Source: Desulfobacteraceae bacterium (GTDB taxonomy: Bacteria > Desulfobacterota > Desulfobacteria > Desulfobacterales > Desulfobacteraceae). From it: a DNA stretch of 5,393 nt. The notes below the pieces were generated by a model that was not told the origin of the DNA, made no database searches, and saw nothing but the letters and a program-made list of their open reading frames with translations. This document shows, one piece after another, positions 1-5,393 of this stretch. The DNA lies in assembly GCA_003354055.1 (NCBI GenBank), contig PIVQ01000531.1, positions 1 through 5,393 on the forward strand, written 5' to 3'. Numbering within the stretch: position 1 is the stretch's first letter; every line of letters begins with the position of its first letter. Both the position numbers and the translations under genes were made by a program.

Positions 1-262
1 CAGACGATTATAATTACGCTGTAGCTGCTTAAGGCGGCTTCCGTCCTCCTGATATCCCTCTTGCAGATTCAGGTCAGGGCGTCGACTATGCAAGATCGCT
101 CGTTATGGTTTCCTGAGCCCTAACAGTTAAATTAATCAGGCTATACCGGATCGTATCCCTCCTGAAGGAGACCTCCCGGCCAATTTTAAAGTTCAGGATA
201 AGTATGTAGAAGCCAGGGTTGATTGTTTTCGGACGCGGGTTCAACTCCCGCCGCCTCCACCA
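1..262 (+). ncRNA. ssrA: tmRNA, 3' portion (cut by window start)
   Basis: This is the downstream part of transfer-messenger RNA, which rescues stalled ribosomes and tags the unfinished protein. Bases 3-32 encode DDYNYAVAA followed by TAA; the two bases before (CA) fit a preceding Ala codon, giving the tag ADDYNYAVAA. Downstream are segments conserved in bacterial tmRNA: AATTAATCAGGCTA near 130-143, AAGTATGTAGAAGCCAGGG near 201-219, and TTTTCGGACGCGGGTTCAAC at 226-245. The last forms the T arm (GCGGG / CCCGC around TTCAACT). The 3' acceptor strand and an encoded CCA end at 262. The 5' acceptor half, the resume region and the first pseudoknot lie outside the window. The 3' end is also an island attachment site (see the repeats). 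The gene remains complete at its 3' end after integration, so it is probably functional. The identification rests on remembered tmRNA sequences and is very secure. Confidence 0.96.
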
Positions 263-282
263 TATATATGTGATAAAATCAG
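231..282 (+). repeat. Left attachment site (att copy 1) in the ssrA 3' end
   Basis: This is a direct repeat of 4391-4442. Positions 234-263 match 4394-4423 exactly (30 bp: the tmRNA T arm, acceptor end and CCA). Position 233 (A) differs from 4393 (C). After the core, 264-270 diverge, and 271-282 (TGATAAAATCAG) is identical again to 4431-4442. Tyrosine recombinases commonly integrate at tRNA or tmRNA 3' ends and duplicate the core, so this is read as attL of a genomic island. Strand exchange should lie inside the 30-bp identical core. The resemblance beyond CCA reflects two related islands having the same left end, not the duplicated target itself. Confidence 0.9.
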
Positions 283-314
283 ATAGTTGCCTCATTTTCA
301 CCCCCCTTAAAAGT

Positions 315-332
315 GGGGCAGAAATGGGGCGG
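315..332 (+). repeat. Paired 11-bp-phased motif, left end of island 1
   Basis: The motif GGGGC occurs at 315-319 and 326-330, exactly 11 bp apart, in the sequence GGGGCAGAAATGGGGCGG. Fifteen of 18 bases match the segment 4334-4351 at the other end of the island, in the same orientation. A partial inverted copy (TGCCC) lies at 342-346. The position, about 50 bp inside the att core, and the one-helical-turn spacing suit integrase arm-type or accessory-factor sites. This function is inferred. Confidence 0.5.
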
Positions 333-362
333 TTTTATTTGTGCCCTTTATTGGTGTTTTTC

Positions 363-1103
363 TTAAACTCCAGTACCTCTTGCATTCGTTTTCCTTCTAA
401 TGATCAATTCGGCCATCTCAGCCGATTCATGCTCATCCATTTGGCAGTATCGGTCAAACGCTTTGTTTGTTCTATGGCCAGAATGTTTTTTGGCTGCCTC
501 TTTGCCCTGAAGTTTTCCAATTTCAGTGGTTGTGGTGTGCCGTGTGCCACCATAAAGATCCAAACCTTCTATCCCAAGTTTTTCACAGGCTGCTACCCAG
601 GCTTTATAAAAATACTTTTCTCCAAATGGGGCATCTTTGGCCACCCCCTTGATACCTTCGACGTGGCGGAAAAATTTAACACTGGGCAGGGCAGGGTATT
701 GATGTTTCAGTTCCCGAAACAGTTCAACATGATCTGGGGCCAGCCGGACAGTTAAAAGACTGTTTTTCTTTTTGGTGGGATAATGGATAAAGAGCATACC
801 TGATGCCAGGTCAATGTCTCCCTCAGTTAATTTTAGCAGGTCTTTTGGCCGCAACTTTGTATATACACTTAAAAGCTCGATACCGAACCATTGCTTAGGA
901 TTCGGAGCCATTTCTTTGATGGTCTCCAGGATCCGGGCCTGTTCTTCCCATGTGGTAAAATTCCTGTATCCCAGATCATATTCAATGTCCGGAAACTCAG
1001 GCATCTGGGCAATGGTGATCACCCGGCGCTTGTGGATGTATTTCCAGAAGTCAGAAAGGGTGGATTTATAATTTGCCCGGGTCTTTTCGGAAATGCCCCT
1101 CAA
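363..1103 (-). CDS. Integrase catalytic half (C-terminal frame)
   Basis: This is the catalytic domain of a tyrosine recombinase, which cuts and rejoins att sites through a covalent phosphotyrosine. Residues are numbered from the TTG at 1103. Arg85 lies in LRPKDLL, the Arg188-His189 pair in LYGGTRHTTTTEI, and His210 in HSGHRTNKAF; the nucleophile Tyr219 is in FDRYCQ. The usual HxxR box is here GGTR, with Gly where many family members have His. The first residues (ISEKTRANYKSTLSDFW) are a normal core-binding helix continuing the upstream frame, so the TTG is an artefact of the frameshift. No Shine-Dalgarno sequence precedes it. On its own this half would lack the zinc motif and part of the core-binding domain. 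Function by homology is firm; activity is doubtful. Confidence 0.85.
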   Translation of the reverse strand: MRGISEKTRANYKSTLSDFWKYIHKRRVITIAQMPEFPDIEYDLGYRNFTTWEEQARILETIKEMAPNPKQWFGIELLSVYTKLRPKDLLKLTEGDIDLASGMLFIHYPTKKKNSLLTVRLAPDHVELFRELKHQYPALPSVKFFRHVEGIKGVAKDAPFGEKYFYKAWVAACEKLGIEGLDLYGGTRHTTTTEIGKLQGKEAAKKHSGHRTNKAFDRYCQMDEHESAEMAELIIRRKTNARGTGV

Positions 1104-1515
1104 TAGAGAAAAGAAAATCTTCTATGTCAGCACCATTGATGTATTTTACATTGATATCACCCCAGTGTTCCGTGGCGACCCTTATATAATTCCTAATATT
1201 TGAAATTGATTTTCGGGTTTTTTTTCGGTTCAGGTATTTTTCGGTTAGGGCTCTGAAGCCGTTGGGGTTTTCTTTTTTATAGTCGTTTGGATCATAGGAC
1301 CCTTCACCGGATTTGTATCTGAGGCCGGTTAAGAACCTTTCAGCCTTGGGATATGATTTGAACCGTCGATAAACATCGGTTCCTAACCTGACAATGAAAG
1401 AGGTGGCTCCTACCTGTGGATGTCCCGGACAGAAGCACCCGCCGCGCTTTTCATCATGTGTCAGGTTGCTTTTACAGACAAAACACTTCTCCCTGGTGGT
1501 TATATTCCCCTTCAT
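1066..1515 (-). CDS. Integrase N-terminal half (zinc-ribbon and core-binding frame)
   Basis: This is the 5' part of the same integrase gene. The frame is open back to 1581, but the ATG at 1513-1515 (MKGNITTREKC) is chosen because GGGGAGG (1521-1527) precedes it at five bases. A zinc-binding pattern follows: Cys11, Cys14, Cys27, Cys29 and His32 (C-x2-C-x12-C-x-C-x2-H). Next come FIVRLG, RRFKSYPKAERFL and KYLNRKKTRKSISNIRNY, typical of the N-terminal DNA-binding part of this integrase group. Good homology-like sequence ends at IEDFLFSIEG. The last nine residues (HFRKDPGKL) are out-of-frame translation before the stop at 1066. Alone it would bind DNA at most and could not catalyse recombination. 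Confidence 0.75.
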   Translation of the reverse strand: MKGNITTREKCFVCKSNLTHDEKRGGCFCPGHPQVGATSFIVRLGTDVYRRFKSYPKAERFLTGLRYKSGEGSYDPNDYKKENPNGFRALTEKYLNRKKTRKSISNIRNYIRVATEHWGDINVKYINGADIEDFLFSIEGHFRKDPGKL

Positions 1516-1520
1516 GCACA

Positions 1521-1527
1521 CCTCCCC
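1521..1527 (-). promoter_or_regulatory. Shine-Dalgarno that decides the integrase start
   Basis: GGGGAGG on the minus strand lies five bases before the ATG at 1513-1515. No comparable site precedes the longer in-frame ATG at 1581. The extra 22 residues of the long form (MTPHPHKYN...) would also fall on the promoter elements. Confidence 0.7.
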
Positions 1528-1530
1528 GAT

Positions 1531-1547
1531 TGATCTAAACTGATCTA
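1531..1547. promoter_or_regulatory. Direct repeat in the integrase leader, candidate operator
   Basis: TGATCTA occurs at 1531-1537 and again at 1541-1547, a 10-bp period. The repeats sit between the putative -10 element (1555-1560) and the Shine-Dalgarno sequence of the integrase gene. One-turn phasing next to a promoter suits binding by a repressor or by the integrase itself. This is inferred from position only. Confidence 0.35.
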
Positions 1548-1554
1548 CGAGACT

Positions 1555-1581
1555 GTTATATTTGTGTGGGTGGGGTGTCAA
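1555..1581 (-). promoter_or_regulatory. Putative sigma-70 promoter of the integrase gene
   Basis: On the minus strand TTGACA (1576-1581) is followed after 15 bp by TATAAC (1555-1560). Both hexamers are near consensus, but the spacer is shorter than the ideal 17. The promoter lies about 40 bp upstream of the chosen start, leaving room for a short leader containing the TGATCTA repeats. Confidence 0.45.
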
Positions 1582-1674
1582 GTTTTATCCAATTTCCTGA
1601 ACGTTAATACATAGTTTACTTTATCTGGTTACCACCCCGGGGCCTCTCCGTTTTCCGATGTAAGATCAATTTTC

Positions 1675-1941
1675 ATGGTCTACTTTATGGCAGCGGCTAC
1701 CTTGCGCTCAGTATGCTCCAGGGCTAACGGACAGGGGACCATATCAAGGATCAGCCGCACCCCGGGAAAAGCCAATCAAAAATCAGCGACAAAGACCCAT
1801 GTCTGCTCATGTTGTAATCAACGCCCAATTGCAAAAGGAAATCGTTTCCTTTGTGCAACCTGTTACGCCGGAGAAACGATGGAAGAACACATTGCATGGG
1901 CCCCCAGACCCTTTATTCCTGGCCATCATCGCCACCGCTGA
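1675..1941 (+). CDS. Possible small zinc-ribbon protein (88 aa), hypothetical
   Basis: I do not recognise this family with certainty. The C-terminal half looks like a real small zinc-binding protein: Cys44-x2-Cys47, twelve residues, then Cys60-x2-Cys63, in THVCSCCNQRPIAKG and NRFLCATCYAG, followed by EEHIA. Two CxxC knuckles suggest a DNA-binding or protein-binding ribbon. The N-terminal 40 residues are basic and low in character. Neither ATG (1675 or 1687) has a clear ribosome site, so the start is uncertain and the gene may be a remnant. It is the only plus-strand gene of the island and lies divergent from the integrase. Its stop codon falls inside a 12-bp perfect inverted repeat (1928-1960). 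An overlapping frame at 1799-2029 has no such motif and was not chosen. Confidence 0.4.
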   Translation: MVYFMAAATLRSVCSRANGQGTISRISRTPGKANQKSATKTHVCSCCNQRPIAKGNRFLCATCYAGETMEEHIAWAPRPFIPGHHRHR

Positions 1942-1960
1942 AGCCTATAGCGGTGGCGAT
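1928..1960. repeat. Perfect 12-bp inverted repeat (hairpin)
   Basis: ATCGCCACCGCT at 1928-1939 is perfectly complementary to AGCGGTGGCGAT at 1949-1960, around a 9-base loop. The arm is GC-rich and would fold stably in RNA of either strand. It spans the stop codon of the small zinc-ribbon ORF. Neither side has a run of T, so it is not a standard intrinsic terminator. It could protect an mRNA 3' end or act as a protein-binding site. Confidence 0.7.
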
Positions 1961-2475
1961 TCAAAAATAAAAATCGCCAAGACTCCTATCAATAAAAGCT
2001 TAACGTTTATTTTGCTTCATGTCTTCTAAAACGCCGAGTTTGCGGTTTCTTGCCACTCTTTGCAATCAGTGCAATGCACCTTATTCGGGGAAGCGCCCAT
2101 AGCTAAAGGGCATAGCATGGCGATTGCCACAGGCCCTTACTTGCAAAAAACTGACCCAAAAACGTCGAAGGTGAGGTGTGGAGGAGTTATTTTTTTTGGG
2201 GGTTTGGAATTTTTTTGAATGGCGGGGGTTTCGGGCGTTTTTAGGGGAGCTTAAAAATATGTTTGAAAAAGCACGCGCTAATAAACGGGGTGGTTTGTTG
2301 CTGGTATAGCTGTAATCGCTGATAGTTGGTGGTATTCAGAAACGATCGAGAAAGGGTATGGAAGATGTCTTAATATTCTAACTTTTTGACGTCTGATATC
2401 ATCAGTAAAAACATGCCGTATATGCTGAAATTGTTGAATAACATACGAAAAAATCAACTTGATTGGAGAATATCC
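1961..2475. other. Non-coding or degenerate stretch of the island
   Basis: I see no convincing gene here. The minus strand has a 30-codon open stretch (2026-2118) containing HCTDCKEW, a CxxC scrap that resembles the edge of a zinc-binding protein but has a stop on each side. Bases 2180-2240 are low complexity, with runs of T and G. A 16-codon ORF at 2259-2309 (MFEKARANKR...) has GGGGAG about ten bases upstream; nothing else supports it. The stretch looks like decayed genes between the integrase module and the cargo. Confidence 0.5.
2448..2464 (-). terminator. Weak candidate terminator after the PLD-like gene
   Basis: On the minus strand, AATCA-AGT-TGATT is followed by T residues (2448-2453). 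It lies about 12 bases past the PLD-like stop codon. The stem is only five pairs and all but one of them are A-T, so this would be a weak terminator at best. Confidence 0.2.
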
Positions 2476-2997
2476 TTATTGCGCGCTCAGTGCCCAAAGA
2501 TCATCAAACATCAAACTAAATTTTGAAACGTCCATTAAATCTCTGTATTCTATAAATAACTCCACATTATTTCCGTTAGCTGATTGGGTCCAATTAAAAG
2601 AACCGGTTATTGACAAATTATTATCAATAATCATAAATTTAGCATGAAGCTTCCCATAACTCCATCGCCTAACATCGGCTCCGGCATTTTCTGCGATATT
2701 TACAAGGCTCTTTTTCTTATTTGCTTCAATATCATCAACAATGAGTTTTACTTTAACACCCCTATTAAGAGCATCAATAATAGCATTTAAAAGACTATTT
2801 TCATCAAATTTATAAATCACAGCAGATACAGATTGATCTGCATTCTCAATCGCATCATAGGACCTTCTAATAGGATTTTCATACAAACTAAGTTTAATAG
2901 TCGGTTCCTGAGCAAATAATAGTGTGTTTTCAAAGCAGCAAAGACAACAGACAACACACAGTATGCGGAGTATGCATTTAAAACTATTTGTATTCAT
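2476..2997 (-). CDS. Secreted single-HKD phospholipase D / Nuc-type endonuclease-like protein
   Basis: This 173-residue protein belongs to the phospholipase D superfamily. The HKD signature H-x-K-x4-D is complete (His118, Lys120, Asp125 in LHAKFMIIDN), followed by the conserved GSFNW (132-136) and Asn143-Asn144-x-Glu146. One HKD per chain and the short length match the Nuc group, whose members work as homodimers and cleave phosphodiester bonds, often in DNA. A positive N-terminus (Lys7, Arg11) and a cysteine-rich hydrophobic core (9-22), ending LLFA-Q near residue 30, indicate a signal peptide, so the enzyme probably acts in the periplasm or outside the cell. The start at 2997 is chosen over the ATG at 3009 because GGAGGA, which overlaps that upstream ATG, is placed correctly for it. 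The gene has its own promoter and is visibly AT-rich. Substrate (DNA, RNA or lipid) cannot be told from the sequence. Confidence 0.9.
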   Translation of the reverse strand: MNTNSFKCILRILCVVCCLCCFENTLLFAQEPTIKLSLYENPIRRSYDAIENADQSVSAVIYKFDENSLLNAIIDALNRGVKVKLIVDDIEANKKKSLVNIAENAGADVRRWSYGKLHAKFMIIDNNLSITGSFNWTQSANGNNVELFIEYRDLMDVSKFSLMFDDLWALSAQ

Positions 2998-3000
2998 TTG

Positions 3001-3007
3001 TTCCTCC
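3001..3007 (-). promoter_or_regulatory. Shine-Dalgarno of the PLD-like gene
   Basis: GGAGGAA on the minus strand lies four to five bases before the ATG at 2995-2997. It overlaps an upstream in-frame ATG (3007-3009), which has no ribosome site of its own. This makes 2997 the start and gives the signal peptide a normal N-terminus. Confidence 0.75.
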
Positions 3008-3017
3008 ATAATCGGTC

Positions 3018-3046
3018 ATTATAGAAGTATAATTTGATGTACACAA
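3018..3046 (-). promoter_or_regulatory. Putative sigma-70 promoter of the PLD-like gene
   Basis: On the minus strand TTGTGT (3041-3046), a 17-bp spacer, then a perfect TATAAT (3018-3023). Transcription would start near 3011, giving a leader of about 14 bases that carries the Shine-Dalgarno sequence. The -35 box matches consensus only in TTG. Confidence 0.6.
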
Positions 3047-3424
3047 GACTGGCACTCAATGAATTTTTGATTTTTCAAACCATTCTTTAAGGACCTCGCT
3101 CTCTATCTACCGGCTATTGATAAACCAAACTCGATAATTTCGCTGCCTACAAAAAAGCTCATCCATTTTTTTCTTTGGGTTGATTAAAAGGGAAAGTCCA
3201 CCCAAAGCAGTGCCGACCGAGAAGTTCCCAAAGCAGACCAAAGGGCAGATGATCCTGGGTTTCTGTTAGGTAGATGACTGTAAAACTGTTTTAATCCTTG
3301 GTTGAGTCATCCCATCAATTATTTTTAAAGGTACCAGTTTATCAGGCGGGTTTCCGAACTGGGATGATAACGGCTTACAGGTAAGCTGCGGACGACGTAG
3401 CCGACCGTCAACTCCATCTGCTGG
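3047..3424. other. Intergenic stretch between the two cargo genes
   Basis: I see no gene here. The stretch holds small repeats only. CCCAAAGCAG occurs at 3201-3210 and 3227-3236. CTTTGGGT (3173-3180) is inverted as ACCCAAAG (3200-3207). Two inverted repeats share one arm: TCATCCCA (3307-3314) with TGGGATGA (3360-3367), and CCAGTT (3334-3339) with AACTGG (3357-3362). None has the T-run of an intrinsic terminator, so how transcription of the membrane-protein gene ends is unclear. Confidence 0.45.
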
Positions 3425-4009
3425 TTAGTCGGTCATGTTCGCGGACTTGCTTCCGTTCTTCTGGAATGCGGCTTTGCGTCTTCTATAGTTCTCGATTATT
3501 TCAGGTTTCAGACGAGGCATCCTCATGTAGAGTCGCGTTTCTCGCAATAGGACAGGGAGCCCAACGGCACACCAGGCAAGATACTGATAGATTCCGTAGT
3601 GCAGTGATTCCACATACAAGGCCGCCAAGGCCAAGCTGATCAGGCCTAGCACGGTGAAGTAGAGTATGCTTGTGTAAGACGCTGGAGTTTTGTCCTCAAC
3701 CAGGATGTCGTAATTCAGGACGTGCTCCCGATACATGTATTCCAGTTCCTCCTCGATAAACACGATTATGTAGCATGATGCCGAGATCATGTCTCGCAGT
3801 CTGTGAGAACATTGGTTTATCGCGCTTGCAGCCAAAATCAGACCAACCAGTGCAGGATATGCGCTGTCAAACTTGAGAGTTAGCGCCCAGAGAGCCACCG
3901 AGAAGGGTAACATCGCGCTTCGCCACCGGGCAATCTCTTGCCCAGACTGTCGAAAATCGGCCTTCAGGTCCTTCAGCTCCTCAAGTAGACATGCGGTTTT
4001 GGTATTCAT
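3425..4009 (-). CDS. Uncharacterised four-helix membrane protein (194 aa)
   Basis: I do not recognise the family. The N-terminal 31 residues are a charged helix (LLEELKDLKADFRQSGQEIARWR). Hydrophobic segments follow at about 32-46 (MLPFSVALWALTL), 51-67 (YPALVGLILAASAINQ), 113-133 (TSILYFTVLGLISLALAALY) and 139-155. Between the second and third lies an acidic helical loop (68-112) with RLRDMI and EEELEYMYRE. The C-terminus is basic (RRRK at 176-179). The positive-inside rule puts both ends and the central loop in the cytoplasm, with two hairpins in the inner membrane. The start is taken as the ATG at 4007-4009, with GAGG at 4021-4024 as a rather distant ribosome site. It stands alone with a repeat-bearing upstream region and has more GC than the PLD-like gene. 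Paired-hairpin architecture occurs among membrane effectors of defence systems, but no sensor partner is visible here, so that role is speculative. Confidence 0.75.
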   Translation of the reverse strand: MNTKTACLLEELKDLKADFRQSGQEIARWRSAMLPFSVALWALTLKFDSAYPALVGLILAASAINQCSHRLRDMISASCYIIVFIEEELEYMYREHVLNYDILVEDKTPASYTSILYFTVLGLISLALAALYVESLHYGIYQYLAWCAVGLPVLLRETRLYMRMPRLKPEIIENYRRRKAAFQKNGSKSANMTD

Positions 4010-4333
4010 TGCGTTTAAAACCTCATCGATCGATCCAGAATCCGGCTAACAATATGACTAATAAATCTGGATATCATTAATGATTCAATAGCAAACTGGA
4101 TATCATGCGGATATGAACGGTATCCAATTCTAACTATCACCTTTTTATTTTCCAAGCAAAGCAACTCTCATAGTCAACTGATTTGAAATCATTAACTTAC
4201 CTTGTCCCCAATTGCAACACTAAACATATAGAATATTATCTTTTCGGTTCATCCACTGGGTTCAGCTCCTAAAAAGGGAGTCGAACTCGGAGGTTTTTTA
4301 ATAGACTGAATGAGGAACCAGGAGAGTGCGATT
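4010..4333. other. Right-end non-coding region of island 1
   Basis: There is no gene between the membrane-protein start and the right att site. It contains the upstream repeats of that gene (4067-4106) and an AT-rich middle. At 4271-4300 there is a hairpin-like segment (GAGT-CGA-ACTC with A5 before and T6 after), a weak bidirectional terminator at best. GGGTTCAGCTCC at 4258-4269 resembles the tmRNA T-loop strand with one change. Confidence 0.45.
4067..4106. promoter_or_regulatory. Direct repeats with a central palindrome upstream of the membrane-protein gene
   Basis: CTGGATATCAT occurs exactly at 4067-4077 and 4096-4106. A perfect 12-bp palindrome, ATCATTAATGAT (4073-4084), overlaps the end of the first copy. 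The array lies 58-97 bases upstream of the membrane-protein start. This arrangement suits an operator for that gene, or accessory sites for recombination given that the island end is nearby. I could not place a convincing promoter beside it. Confidence 0.4.
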
Positions 4334-4351
4334 GGGGCGGAATTGGGGCGC
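4334..4351 (+). repeat. Paired 11-bp-phased motif, right end of island 1
   Basis: GGGGC at 4334-4338 and 4345-4349, again 11 bp apart, in GGGGCGGAATTGGGGCGC. It matches 315-332 at 15 of 18 positions in direct orientation. The second copy is part of an inverted repeat, ATTGGG-GCG-CCCAAT (4342-4356). It lies about 40 bp inside the right att core. It is a candidate integrase arm site of the first island. Confidence 0.5.
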
Positions 4352-4390
4352 CCAATGCTAACTACTTGAAATAATTGGAAACTTTAGTGA

Positions 4391-4442
4391 GGCCGCGGGT
4401 TCAACTCCCGCCGCCTCCACCATTTTTATATGATAAAATCAG
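4391..4442 (+). repeat. Second attachment site (att copy 2), junction of two islands
   Basis: It repeats the ssrA 3' end: 4394-4423 equals 234-263, including TTCAACTCCCGCC and CCA. No tmRNA body precedes it, so it is a displaced duplicate and not a gene. Left of it is the end of island 1. Right of it, 4424-4442 resembles the sequence after the first att copy (TGATAAAATCAG shared) and leads into a second integrase. It is therefore attR of the first island and attL of the next, with the final attR outside the window. Confidence 0.88.
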
Positions 4443-4467
4443 TAAGTTAGATGATTTTGTACCCCTA

Positions 4468-4512
4468 AAAAGGTGCTGTCTCGGTGCTGTGTTTAGCATC
4501 TCAGCACCTTTT
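4468..4512 (-). terminator. Putative intrinsic terminator of the second integrase
   Basis: On the minus strand AAAAGGTGCTG (4502-4512) pairs with CAGCACCTTTT (4468-4478) across a 23-base loop, and the T run reaches 4467. The stem begins in the last codons of the integrase gene. The T-tailed 11-bp stem suits a terminator stopping integrase transcripts before ssrA-like sequence, but the loop is long. The same bases also form the phased GGTGCTGT repeats, so a protein-binding role is an alternative. Confidence 0.45.
4472..4490 (+). repeat. Paired 11-bp-phased motif, left end of island 2
   Basis: GGTGCTGT occurs at 4472-4479 and 4483-4490, an 11-bp period, with an inverted CAGCACC at 4502-4508. 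The first copy starts 50 bases after the att CCA. In the first island the GGGGC pair starts 53 bases after CCA with the same 11-bp period and a following inverted partial copy. Layout is conserved and sequence is not, as expected for arm sites matched to a different integrase. Confidence 0.45.
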
Positions 4513-5079
4513 CTCATTTTTGGGGAACTCCAATATTTCTGCACTATCTTTTTTAAGTAATTCAACCATTTTAAAGGCCGTATCATTTTGAAACTGACAA
4601 TACCTGTCAAAGGCCTTGTTTGTTTCATGGTCAGATGCCTCCCTGGCACTTTGAGTGCCGGCGCGTCTGGCAATCTCCGTGGTGCTGGTATGCCGGGTGC
4701 CGCCATACAGATCCAGATCTTCCACCCCCAGTTCGTTGCAGGCCCTGTCCCACCAGACTTTGAAATACTTCGGACCAAAGGGTGCATTCACCTTCATGCT
4801 TTTAATACCGCAGTGGTGCCTGAAAAATTTCAGTTCAGGAACCGCAGTGAATCGTTGTTTTATTTCTGCAAAATAATCAATGTGCTCCTGGAGCAACCGT
4901 ACCGTTTTAAGCTTGTTCTTTGATTTGGTAGGGTAGTGGATGGTAATTAGTCCGTATGCTGCGTTAATGTCCTTTTCACGGATCTTGAGCAGGTCCCCGG
5001 GCCTGAGGTTCACATAGGTAGCCAGAAGATAGATCCCGAACCATATCTTTGGGTTGATCTCTTCAGTCAGTTCCCGCAC
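4501..5079 (-). CDS. Second tyrosine recombinase, 5'-truncated (catalytic domain only)
   Basis: The catalytic domain of a site-specific integrase, related to the one at 363-1103. Numbered from the GTG at 5079, the catalytic residues are Arg26 (NLRPGDLL), Arg129-His130 (LYGGTRHTSTTEI), His151 (ASDHETNKAF) and Tyr160 (FDRYCQ), all present. Family-like sequence continues upstream in frame for only about seven to nine codons (TQGAIINK). It then meets unrelated sequence and a stop, so the zinc-ribbon and core-binding regions of about 180 residues are missing. The GTG has no good ribosome site, and the gene is probably a non-functional remnant. It reads toward att copy 2 and ends about 80 bases from it, mirroring the first island. 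The C-terminus (DSAEILEFPKNEKRC) differs from its paralogue. Confidence 0.8.
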   Translation of the reverse strand: MRELTEEINPKIWFGIYLLATYVNLRPGDLLKIREKDINAAYGLITIHYPTKSKNKLKTVRLLQEHIDYFAEIKQRFTAVPELKFFRHHCGIKSMKVNAPFGPKYFKVWWDRACNELGVEDLDLYGGTRHTSTTEIARRAGTQSAREASDHETNKAFDRYCQFQNDTAFKMVELLKKDSAEILEFPKNEKRC

Positions 5080-5255
5080 CTTATTAATGATGGCCCCCTG
5101 GGTAGACGCTGCTTTTTAGTCACCAGCACTTTCCTCTCTCTATGTTTTGTAATTTCTGTCATCTTAGAAGTCGTAGTGTTTTGAAACGGGAAACACCGGA
5201 TGGACCTTATTGTTGGCCTAAAGGAATGGGTTTATGGCTACCTGGCAAGTGCTCT

Positions 5256-5393
5256 CTATTCCGTTGGTTTGGCTGGTGGGCGGGGGCCGCAAGGATCGCA
5301 GATGATCCTTATAGTACTTCCGTTTTGGGGGGTAGGGGCATCGTATCTTCTATAGTATTCATCTAAAACCTGGTGAATTTCTTTTTGTTCCAT
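5256..5393 (-). CDS. Short ORF touching the window end (45 aa visible), unidentified
   Basis: A minus-strand frame begins with ATG exactly at the window edge and ends with TAG at 5256-5258. It reads MEQKEIHQVLDEYYRRYD, then a Pro-rich tail with ICDPCGPRPP. The acidic and aromatic N-terminus looks protein-like, but I recognise no family. The start may be further upstream, outside the window. Further stops (TAG, TAA) follow in the same frame before more open sequence (MTEITKHRERKVL..., 5159 downward), so this may be a decayed gene. The intervening 5110-5255 shows no gene. Low confidence. Confidence 0.25.
   Translation of the reverse strand: MEQKEIHQVLDEYYRRYDAPTPQNGSTIRIICDPCGPRPPAKPTE

Follow-up and report, generated by a model that had tools for sequence, protein, structure and literature searches.

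Probable successive insertion of two related integrative islands at ssrA in a Desulfobacteraceae bacterium

The ssrA locus and its two units

The stretch of DNA analysed here (the window, 5393 bases, which is the whole of contig PIVQ01000531.1 from a Desulfobacteraceae bacterium) begins within ssrA, the gene for transfer-messenger RNA (tmRNA), and continues into two consecutive units, unit 1 and unit 2, each preceded by a copy of the tmRNA 3′ end and each carrying an integrase gene, int1 and int2 respectively (Table 1). We read the two units as integrative islands that were probably inserted at ssrA one after the other, and we describe short paired repeats behind the attachment core that differ between them. 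The tmRNA assignment comes from a match to RF00023 that scores 102 bits (gathering score 47) and is cut on its 5′ side by the window edge; ARAGORN listed no tmRNA gene in the window, as expected because the 5′ half of the gene is absent from it. The last 29 bases of the tmRNA and one more form the first copy of the core. The sequence-only reading of this DNA had reported an exact 30-base copy of the tmRNA end downstream and a first unit of about 4.16 kb, and both statements hold, with the two copies starting 4160 bases apart. Any extension of the exact repeat on either side brings a mismatch, and the chance expectation for exact 30-base repeats in 5393 bases is about 1e-11; similarity of the two copies extends beyond the core, over 85 bases at 80%. 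Neither this wider similarity nor the broken state of both integrases had been mentioned in the sequence-only reading. Unit 1 accordingly has what marks an island at a tRNA or tmRNA gene (a tDNA island), namely an intact tmRNA 3′ end at one boundary, an exact displaced fragment in the orientation of the gene at the other, and an integrase gene inside, here a broken one. Among 86 genomes of the Desulfobacter vibrioformis family, 69 contain a match to the tmRNA of the window (best 94% identical, in G031) and 64 contain the core when up to one mismatch in 26 bases is allowed.

Table 1. Features of the window; strand is given relative to the forward strand, and a dot marks a feature without strand
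Feature	Position	Strand	Basis or remark
ssrA (tmRNA), 3′ part, attachment gene	1..262	+	Rfam RF00023
Attachment core copy 1 (tmRNA T arm, acceptor end, CCA, T)	234..263	+	exact 30-base repeat
Unit 1 left repeat pair TGGGGC, 11 bases apart, putative arm-type sites	314..330	+	sequence pattern
int1, tyrosine integrase pointing at tmRNA, broken in two frames	363..1581	-	frames 1066-1581 and 363-1103
Small open frame	1675..1941	+	no Pfam, PHROG or PADLOC match
Phospholipase D-like nuclease, hydrophobic N-terminus (by eye)	2476..3009	-	Pfam PLDc_2, E 2.4e-23
Orphan frame, 194 codons, hydrophobic stretches (by eye)	3425..4009	-	no relative found
Unit 1 right repeat pair ATTGGGGCG, 11 bases apart, motif as at 314-330	4331..4350	+	
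Attachment core copy 2, unit 1/unit 2 joint	4394..4423	+	exact repeat; differing repeat motifs either side
Unit 2 left repeat pair GGTGCTGT, 11 bases apart	4472..4490	+	
int2, C-terminal remnant of P0022-type integrase	4501..5106	-	4519-5106 matches P0022 residues 189-386 at 77%
Remainder of unit 2	5107..5393	.	int2 N-terminal half not present here

As had also been noticed from the sequence, a related integrase stands behind each core copy and reads toward it; int1 and int2 share 56% of 167 aligned residues. The two overlapping frames of int1 jointly cover nearly all of P0002 (residues 15-175 and 169-413), the C-terminal piece is 89% identical to P0001, and the nearest proteins (up to 89% identical) include one that its source names as uncultured Desulfobacter. 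The C-terminal frame of int1 reaches the PF00589 catalytic domain at 27.1 bits with a cut-off of 27.1, and 24 of the 25 members of integrase family A1 match PF00589 at E up to 1, many of them weakly. For P0004, a relative and not a protein of the window, the predicted fold (mean predicted local distance difference test score, pLDDT, of 81, falling under 50 at residues 347-362) has lambda integrase as its best PDB match (E 1.9e-8). The N-terminal domain of lambda integrase binds arm sites, and residues 1-70 of family A1 form a conserved Cys/His N-terminus, zinc-ribbon-like and with weak Pfam hits only, ahead of the arm-binding region. The integrase family is present in 30 of the 86 genomes, and its profile is matched, in many cases weakly, by 76 of 395 genomes in an even sample of the phylum. 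Two further integrase copies lie about 1.8 kb apart, 4 to 7 kb behind the tmRNA, in Desulfospira joergensenii (L056; G012:C3:490990-493412), and both have an identical internal deletion in which residues 1-69 adjoin about residue 255 onward.

Unit 1 holds an integrase and a gene fragment, while unit 2 holds an integrase remnant, its far fragment presumably lying beyond 5393; at the DNA level (E cut-off 1e-4), positions 5107-5393 matched none of the loci compared. A stretch resembling ttaa-n-aaaccga, noticed by eye just after the CCA in L184, L190 and L191 and after the far core in L185 and L189, is probably the native ssrA flank, and its absence after 4423 indicates that the array of the window continues beyond this point. 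Before the right repeats of unit 1 there is also a palindrome (4257-4285) of two inverted T-arm-like half sites that agree at 16 of 18 positions, possibly a decoy core or a terminator. Similar palindromes precede three of 22 other cores checked (G038, L201 and G002), each beating 100 of 100 shuffles.

Paired direct repeats behind the core

About 50 bases behind the core, a short motif occurs twice with starts 11 bases apart in 44 of the 49 tmRNA islands with this integrase nearby. The threshold was at least 7 of 8 matches; 35 islands reach 8 of 8, and both units of the window count among the 44. These islands come from a period scan of 95 cores and the two in the window, of which two were dropped for too little sequence and 95 classed as having the integrase within 200 bases (49), as tmRNA flanks without integrase (19) or as other (27). 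Each of the other periods (8-10 and 12-15) was found in 1 to 3 of the 49, and shuffles gave 2.5%. The pair is seen in 5 of 19 tmRNA flanks without integrase and in 7 of 27 other cores, some of which are right ends or relics. At tRNA genes, all 18 family members examined have it (at 17 of these loci ARAGORN calls a tRNA, and the remaining one, L054, was assigned from its core only), as do 17 of 19 loci of a further set, which remained from 59 after 40 were dropped (15 already used, 22 without an RNA gene in reach and three without an integrase by BLAST). We infer that the 11-base-spaced repeats are putative arm-type binding sites of the integrase, and in unit 1 candidate sites of this kind lie at both ends, the two-sided pattern of lambda-type systems.

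The sequence of the motif varies by integrase type yet agrees at both ends of one island. Specifically, the motif before the far core matches the near-end motif of the same island with a score of at least 13 of 16 in 10 of 13 islands, and the mean score of an island's left motif against its own right flank is 13.3 of 16, compared with 9.6 for 156 mismatched pairs, a mean reached in 0 of 20000 permutations, although the cases are not all independent because related islands share motifs. Three of the tested islands (G089, G092 and G047) have their ends on separate contigs, and G002 was omitted because its left pair is at +124. Between islands, motifs are no more alike than background (mean 4.5 to 4.7 of 8) when the catalytic domains are less than 55% identical, with values of 4.85 at 55-70% and 6.2 above 70% (24 pairs). 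Turnover of the motif is fast, with likeness near background until the integrases exceed 70% identity.

The same agreement of ends can be used to place islands relative to one another. At the core copy at 4394, the left side carries ATTGGGGCG of unit 1 and the right side GGTGCTGT of unit 2, and this difference makes it a joint between two islands. In Desulfobacter vibrioformis, the motif that follows the tmRNA on contig 31 reappears in front of the core of contig 55 with a score of 15 of 16 (16 for the corresponding motif of G060), and the motif of contig 55 reappears in front of the core of contig 53 at 16 of 16. This chain of motifs would order the three islands as tmRNA, contig 31, contig 55 and contig 53 or, by integrase type, as tmRNA, type C, P0022-type and P0004-type. 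Two contigs of this species, L001 and L002, have 322 identical end bases in opposite sense and are therefore not joinable there, so that the contig order is taken from the motifs alone. Elsewhere, the left motif of G050 C549 is of type C, unlike that of its own tmRNA contig, and G088 C157 is at background.

These observations lead us to a general account that we hold tentatively, at somewhat below even odds: the family would keep the tRNA or tmRNA core fixed, each lineage would have its own arm motif as an 11-base pair about 50 bases behind the core, and islands would stack, with each integrase excising only its own unit. Differing arm motifs would in this way permit separate recognition of islands that share one core. 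Several results count against so broad an account, and also against the successive insertion set out below: the repeat pair is below threshold in 5 of the 49 islands, three of the 13 islands (L028, L049 and G080) show no end match (scores of 9 or 10), no single integrase domain was found to track the motif, and P2-like phage DNA at enterobacterial ssrA, used as a control, also has such a pair. Since P2-like phages share it, the 11-base spacing is a general feature of such integrases and not private to the family; the new part is the quick change of the motif next to a constant core, rather than the spacing.

Successive insertion and its alternatives

When 264-4423 is left out, the joined flanks (1-263 and 4424-5393) align unbroken over the join in four of seven relatives, reaching at least 274 bases beyond it (1-943 in L188 and in L180, 1-612 in L193 and 1-537 in L178, from genomes G037, G035, G036 and G031), and in the other three the alignment extends 44 or 22 bases beyond the join or ends at it. 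The four belong to species other than that of the window, and they bear out the expectation, raised from the sequence alone, that relatives lacking 264-4423 should exist. In each of them a remnant of the int2 type, itself incomplete, lies directly behind the tmRNA, so that where unit 1 is present, in the window, the remnant has moved outward by 4160 bases. Unit 1 in turn resembles, at its integrase end and less strongly at its far end, an ssrA island of 16.6 kb in a Desulfobacter genome that is assembled as a single 6.48-Mb contig (G038): window 1-1590 matches the ssrA end of that island at 76% and window 4333-4424 its far end at 75%, while the bodies of the two have no DNA match. With the core omitted, the far end still scores 29, above all 300 shuffles, the highest of which reaches 26.

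Together with the differing motifs at 4394, the relatives without the insert and the ends shared with G038 support the earlier proposal of stacked islands. We estimate a probability of roughly 85% that the window holds two integrative islands of one tyrosine integrase family that were successively inserted in ssrA, the P0022-type island first and the int1-type island later. On this reading, the P0022-type island (unit 2) would have entered the ssrA 3′ end first and then decayed, and the int1-type island (unit 1, 4.16 kb) would next have inserted at the tmRNA end, restoring the gene and shifting the older island with its core copy outward; the order of the two insertions is inferred from this arrangement. 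The integrase would bind the core in the tmRNA 3′ end and, through its N-terminal domain, the flanking paired sites in a lambda-like manner, and integration would restore the tmRNA and leave a core copy on the outside. As a later island would reuse the restored end, the newest unit would adjoin the gene. Growth by repeated insertion at one site, which the sequence-only reading had proposed, is thus supported as far as successive insertion goes; growth by the islands' own integrases is suggested for the past only, because neither looks functional as assembled, with int1 split over two frames and int2 present as its C-terminal part. As no whole integrase is assembled, unit 1 could move only with an integrase supplied in trans, and the stack in the window is probably fixed or reliant on such help.

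Three further points weigh against successive insertion. Among the compared genomes there is no relative of the window's own species with an empty ssrA, the breaks in the integrases may stem from sequencing or assembly error instead of decay, and the far-end likeness to G038 is modest, and the viral contig L082, which has a P0022-type integrase, scores higher there, at 47 against 29; the L082 score stems from a 31-base stretch at 4245-4275.

The cargo of unit 1 bears on the alternative that survives best, though we consider it unlikely: that unit 1 is a remnant or satellite of an integrative filamentous phage (inovirus) using this integrase at ssrA. The G038 island, which shares its ends with unit 1, contains pI/Zot-like, pIV secretin-like, Ace-like and replication-endonuclease-like genes, and pI/Zot-like genes also occur in 9 of the 107 fetched loci with the integrase family and in the islands of G001 contig 31 and G060. 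The majority of the loci, however, are without a pI/Zot-like gene, and most of the G038 phage region is found at two other places in that chromosome at 97%, so that the phage may be a passenger there. In the seven frames scanned in the window, neither phage structural genes nor a pI/Zot-like ATPase was found. We therefore rejected unit 1 as an inovirus prophage in the window itself and retained possible ancestry. Within the G038 locus (L185), the filamentous-phage gene set spans 2065-9848 of the ssrA island, and a TraX-like gene adjoins the integrase.

As for the genes that unit 1 does carry, the frame around its small open frame (1615-1938) weakly resembles stretches of the viral contigs L105 and L106 (tblastn E about 9e-7), which carry distant members of the integrase family. 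The best relative of the phospholipase D-like nuclease is 69% identical, and the NucT and DrmC models match it below their cut-offs. For the 194-codon frame, the sole match among 5.8 billion proteins is itself, and four libraries contained no family for it. A search of the window for its nearest phages and plasmids matched at the tmRNA end alone, and the body of unit 1 compared with the fetched loci gave only two weak likenesses at E < 0.001. We also considered the size of unit 1 as an unusual trait and rejected it: comparable island pairs elsewhere measure 4.04, 4.64 and 4.77 kb, and up to 28.9 kb, so that the very small first unit stressed by the sequence-only reading is not out of the ordinary. 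The 4.04-kb case (L189 of G080, 463-4524) has two cores and a mere scrap of integrase motif, in frame 582-887.

Successive insertion also has to be set against readings in which the joint at 4394-4423 has another origin, each of them more doubtful than an inovirus remnant. An assembly artefact, in which contigs of a mixed population were fused through the 30-base repeat, is improbable; the window is a complete contig and such repeats are prone to short-read misjoins, but 30 bases is below the final word size usual in assembly, and a like joint, with non-tmRNA DNA and one motif on the left and another integrase and motif on the right, is present in L001 and L002 of Desulfobacter vibrioformis. 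It is still less probable that 264-4423 is a portion of one old composite island with an internal core copy and not a separate insertion, for although the window shows one side of the array only and the far end of unit 2 is unseen, the two ends of unit 1 carry a matching repeat motif of their own and the four relatives have the unit 2-type remnant directly behind the tmRNA without 264-4423. That the 4394 copy is the phage-type attachment site (attP) of a circular element is hardly credible. The viral contigs L082 and L085 speak for it, as each has a non-tmRNA core beside this integrase with one motif on both sides, as at an attP; against it, in the window the motifs differ on the two sides and copy 1 lies within the tmRNA gene on the same contig.

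Comparison with known tandem islands

Successive insertion, as we favour it here, gives a clear two-step stack in which the earlier step is still visible in relatives, and its hosts are environmental sulfate reducers, in which such arrays are little described. If arm motifs do act as private addresses, this would explain how islands with one attachment core coexist, and would offer a sequence rule to assign ends, to order contig-broken arrays and to tell joints from attP sites. Among open-licence PMC papers, we found none in which stacks are ordered by arm motifs. Neither tandem ssrA islands nor small units nor arm-type sites are new in themselves; what is new is the fixed-position repeat pair whose sequence differs by integrase type and agrees at island ends.

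The sequence-only reading had called a tandem array with a very small first unit and two diverged integrases less ordinary, but tandem tDNA arrays in which every member has an integrase and a gene fragment form an established class, and Islander counts 125 arrays of two or more members and 4 of three or more among 3919 islands (PMC4383910). Like these, the window has the tmRNA restored at the near end, a displaced 3′ fragment in the same orientation at the far end and an integrase per member; unlike them, it shows the first two members only, its integrases are broken and the outermost fragment lies beyond the contig (PMC4383910). The ssrA islands of Dehalococcoides likewise comprise multiple tandem units downstream of ssrA, with copies of its 3′ end as boundaries, with near-end integration genes reading toward ssrA and with members that have no working integrase, but they use the serine recombinase DsiB and a 20 bp repeat, whereas the window has a tyrosine integrase and a 30 bp repeat (PMC3146451). 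The Pf filamentous phages of Pseudomonas use tmRNA as well, and their prophages resemble unit 1 in being small elements with a tyrosine integrase and the tmRNA 3′ end (28 bp in Pf) as attachment site; they differ in integrase group and hosts, and unit 1 is without phage genes although the related island has them (PMC7549136). The closest parallel to the arm motifs comes from Oenococcus prophages, for which differing integrase N-termini were inferred to bind differing sets of direct repeats in the attP arms, and for which a remnant and a prophage in tandem at a single site were reported (PMC8074189). That work concerns few phages of one species (PMC8074189), whereas the arm motif described here differs among dozens of islands of a single bacterial group and serves to work out the order in a stack.

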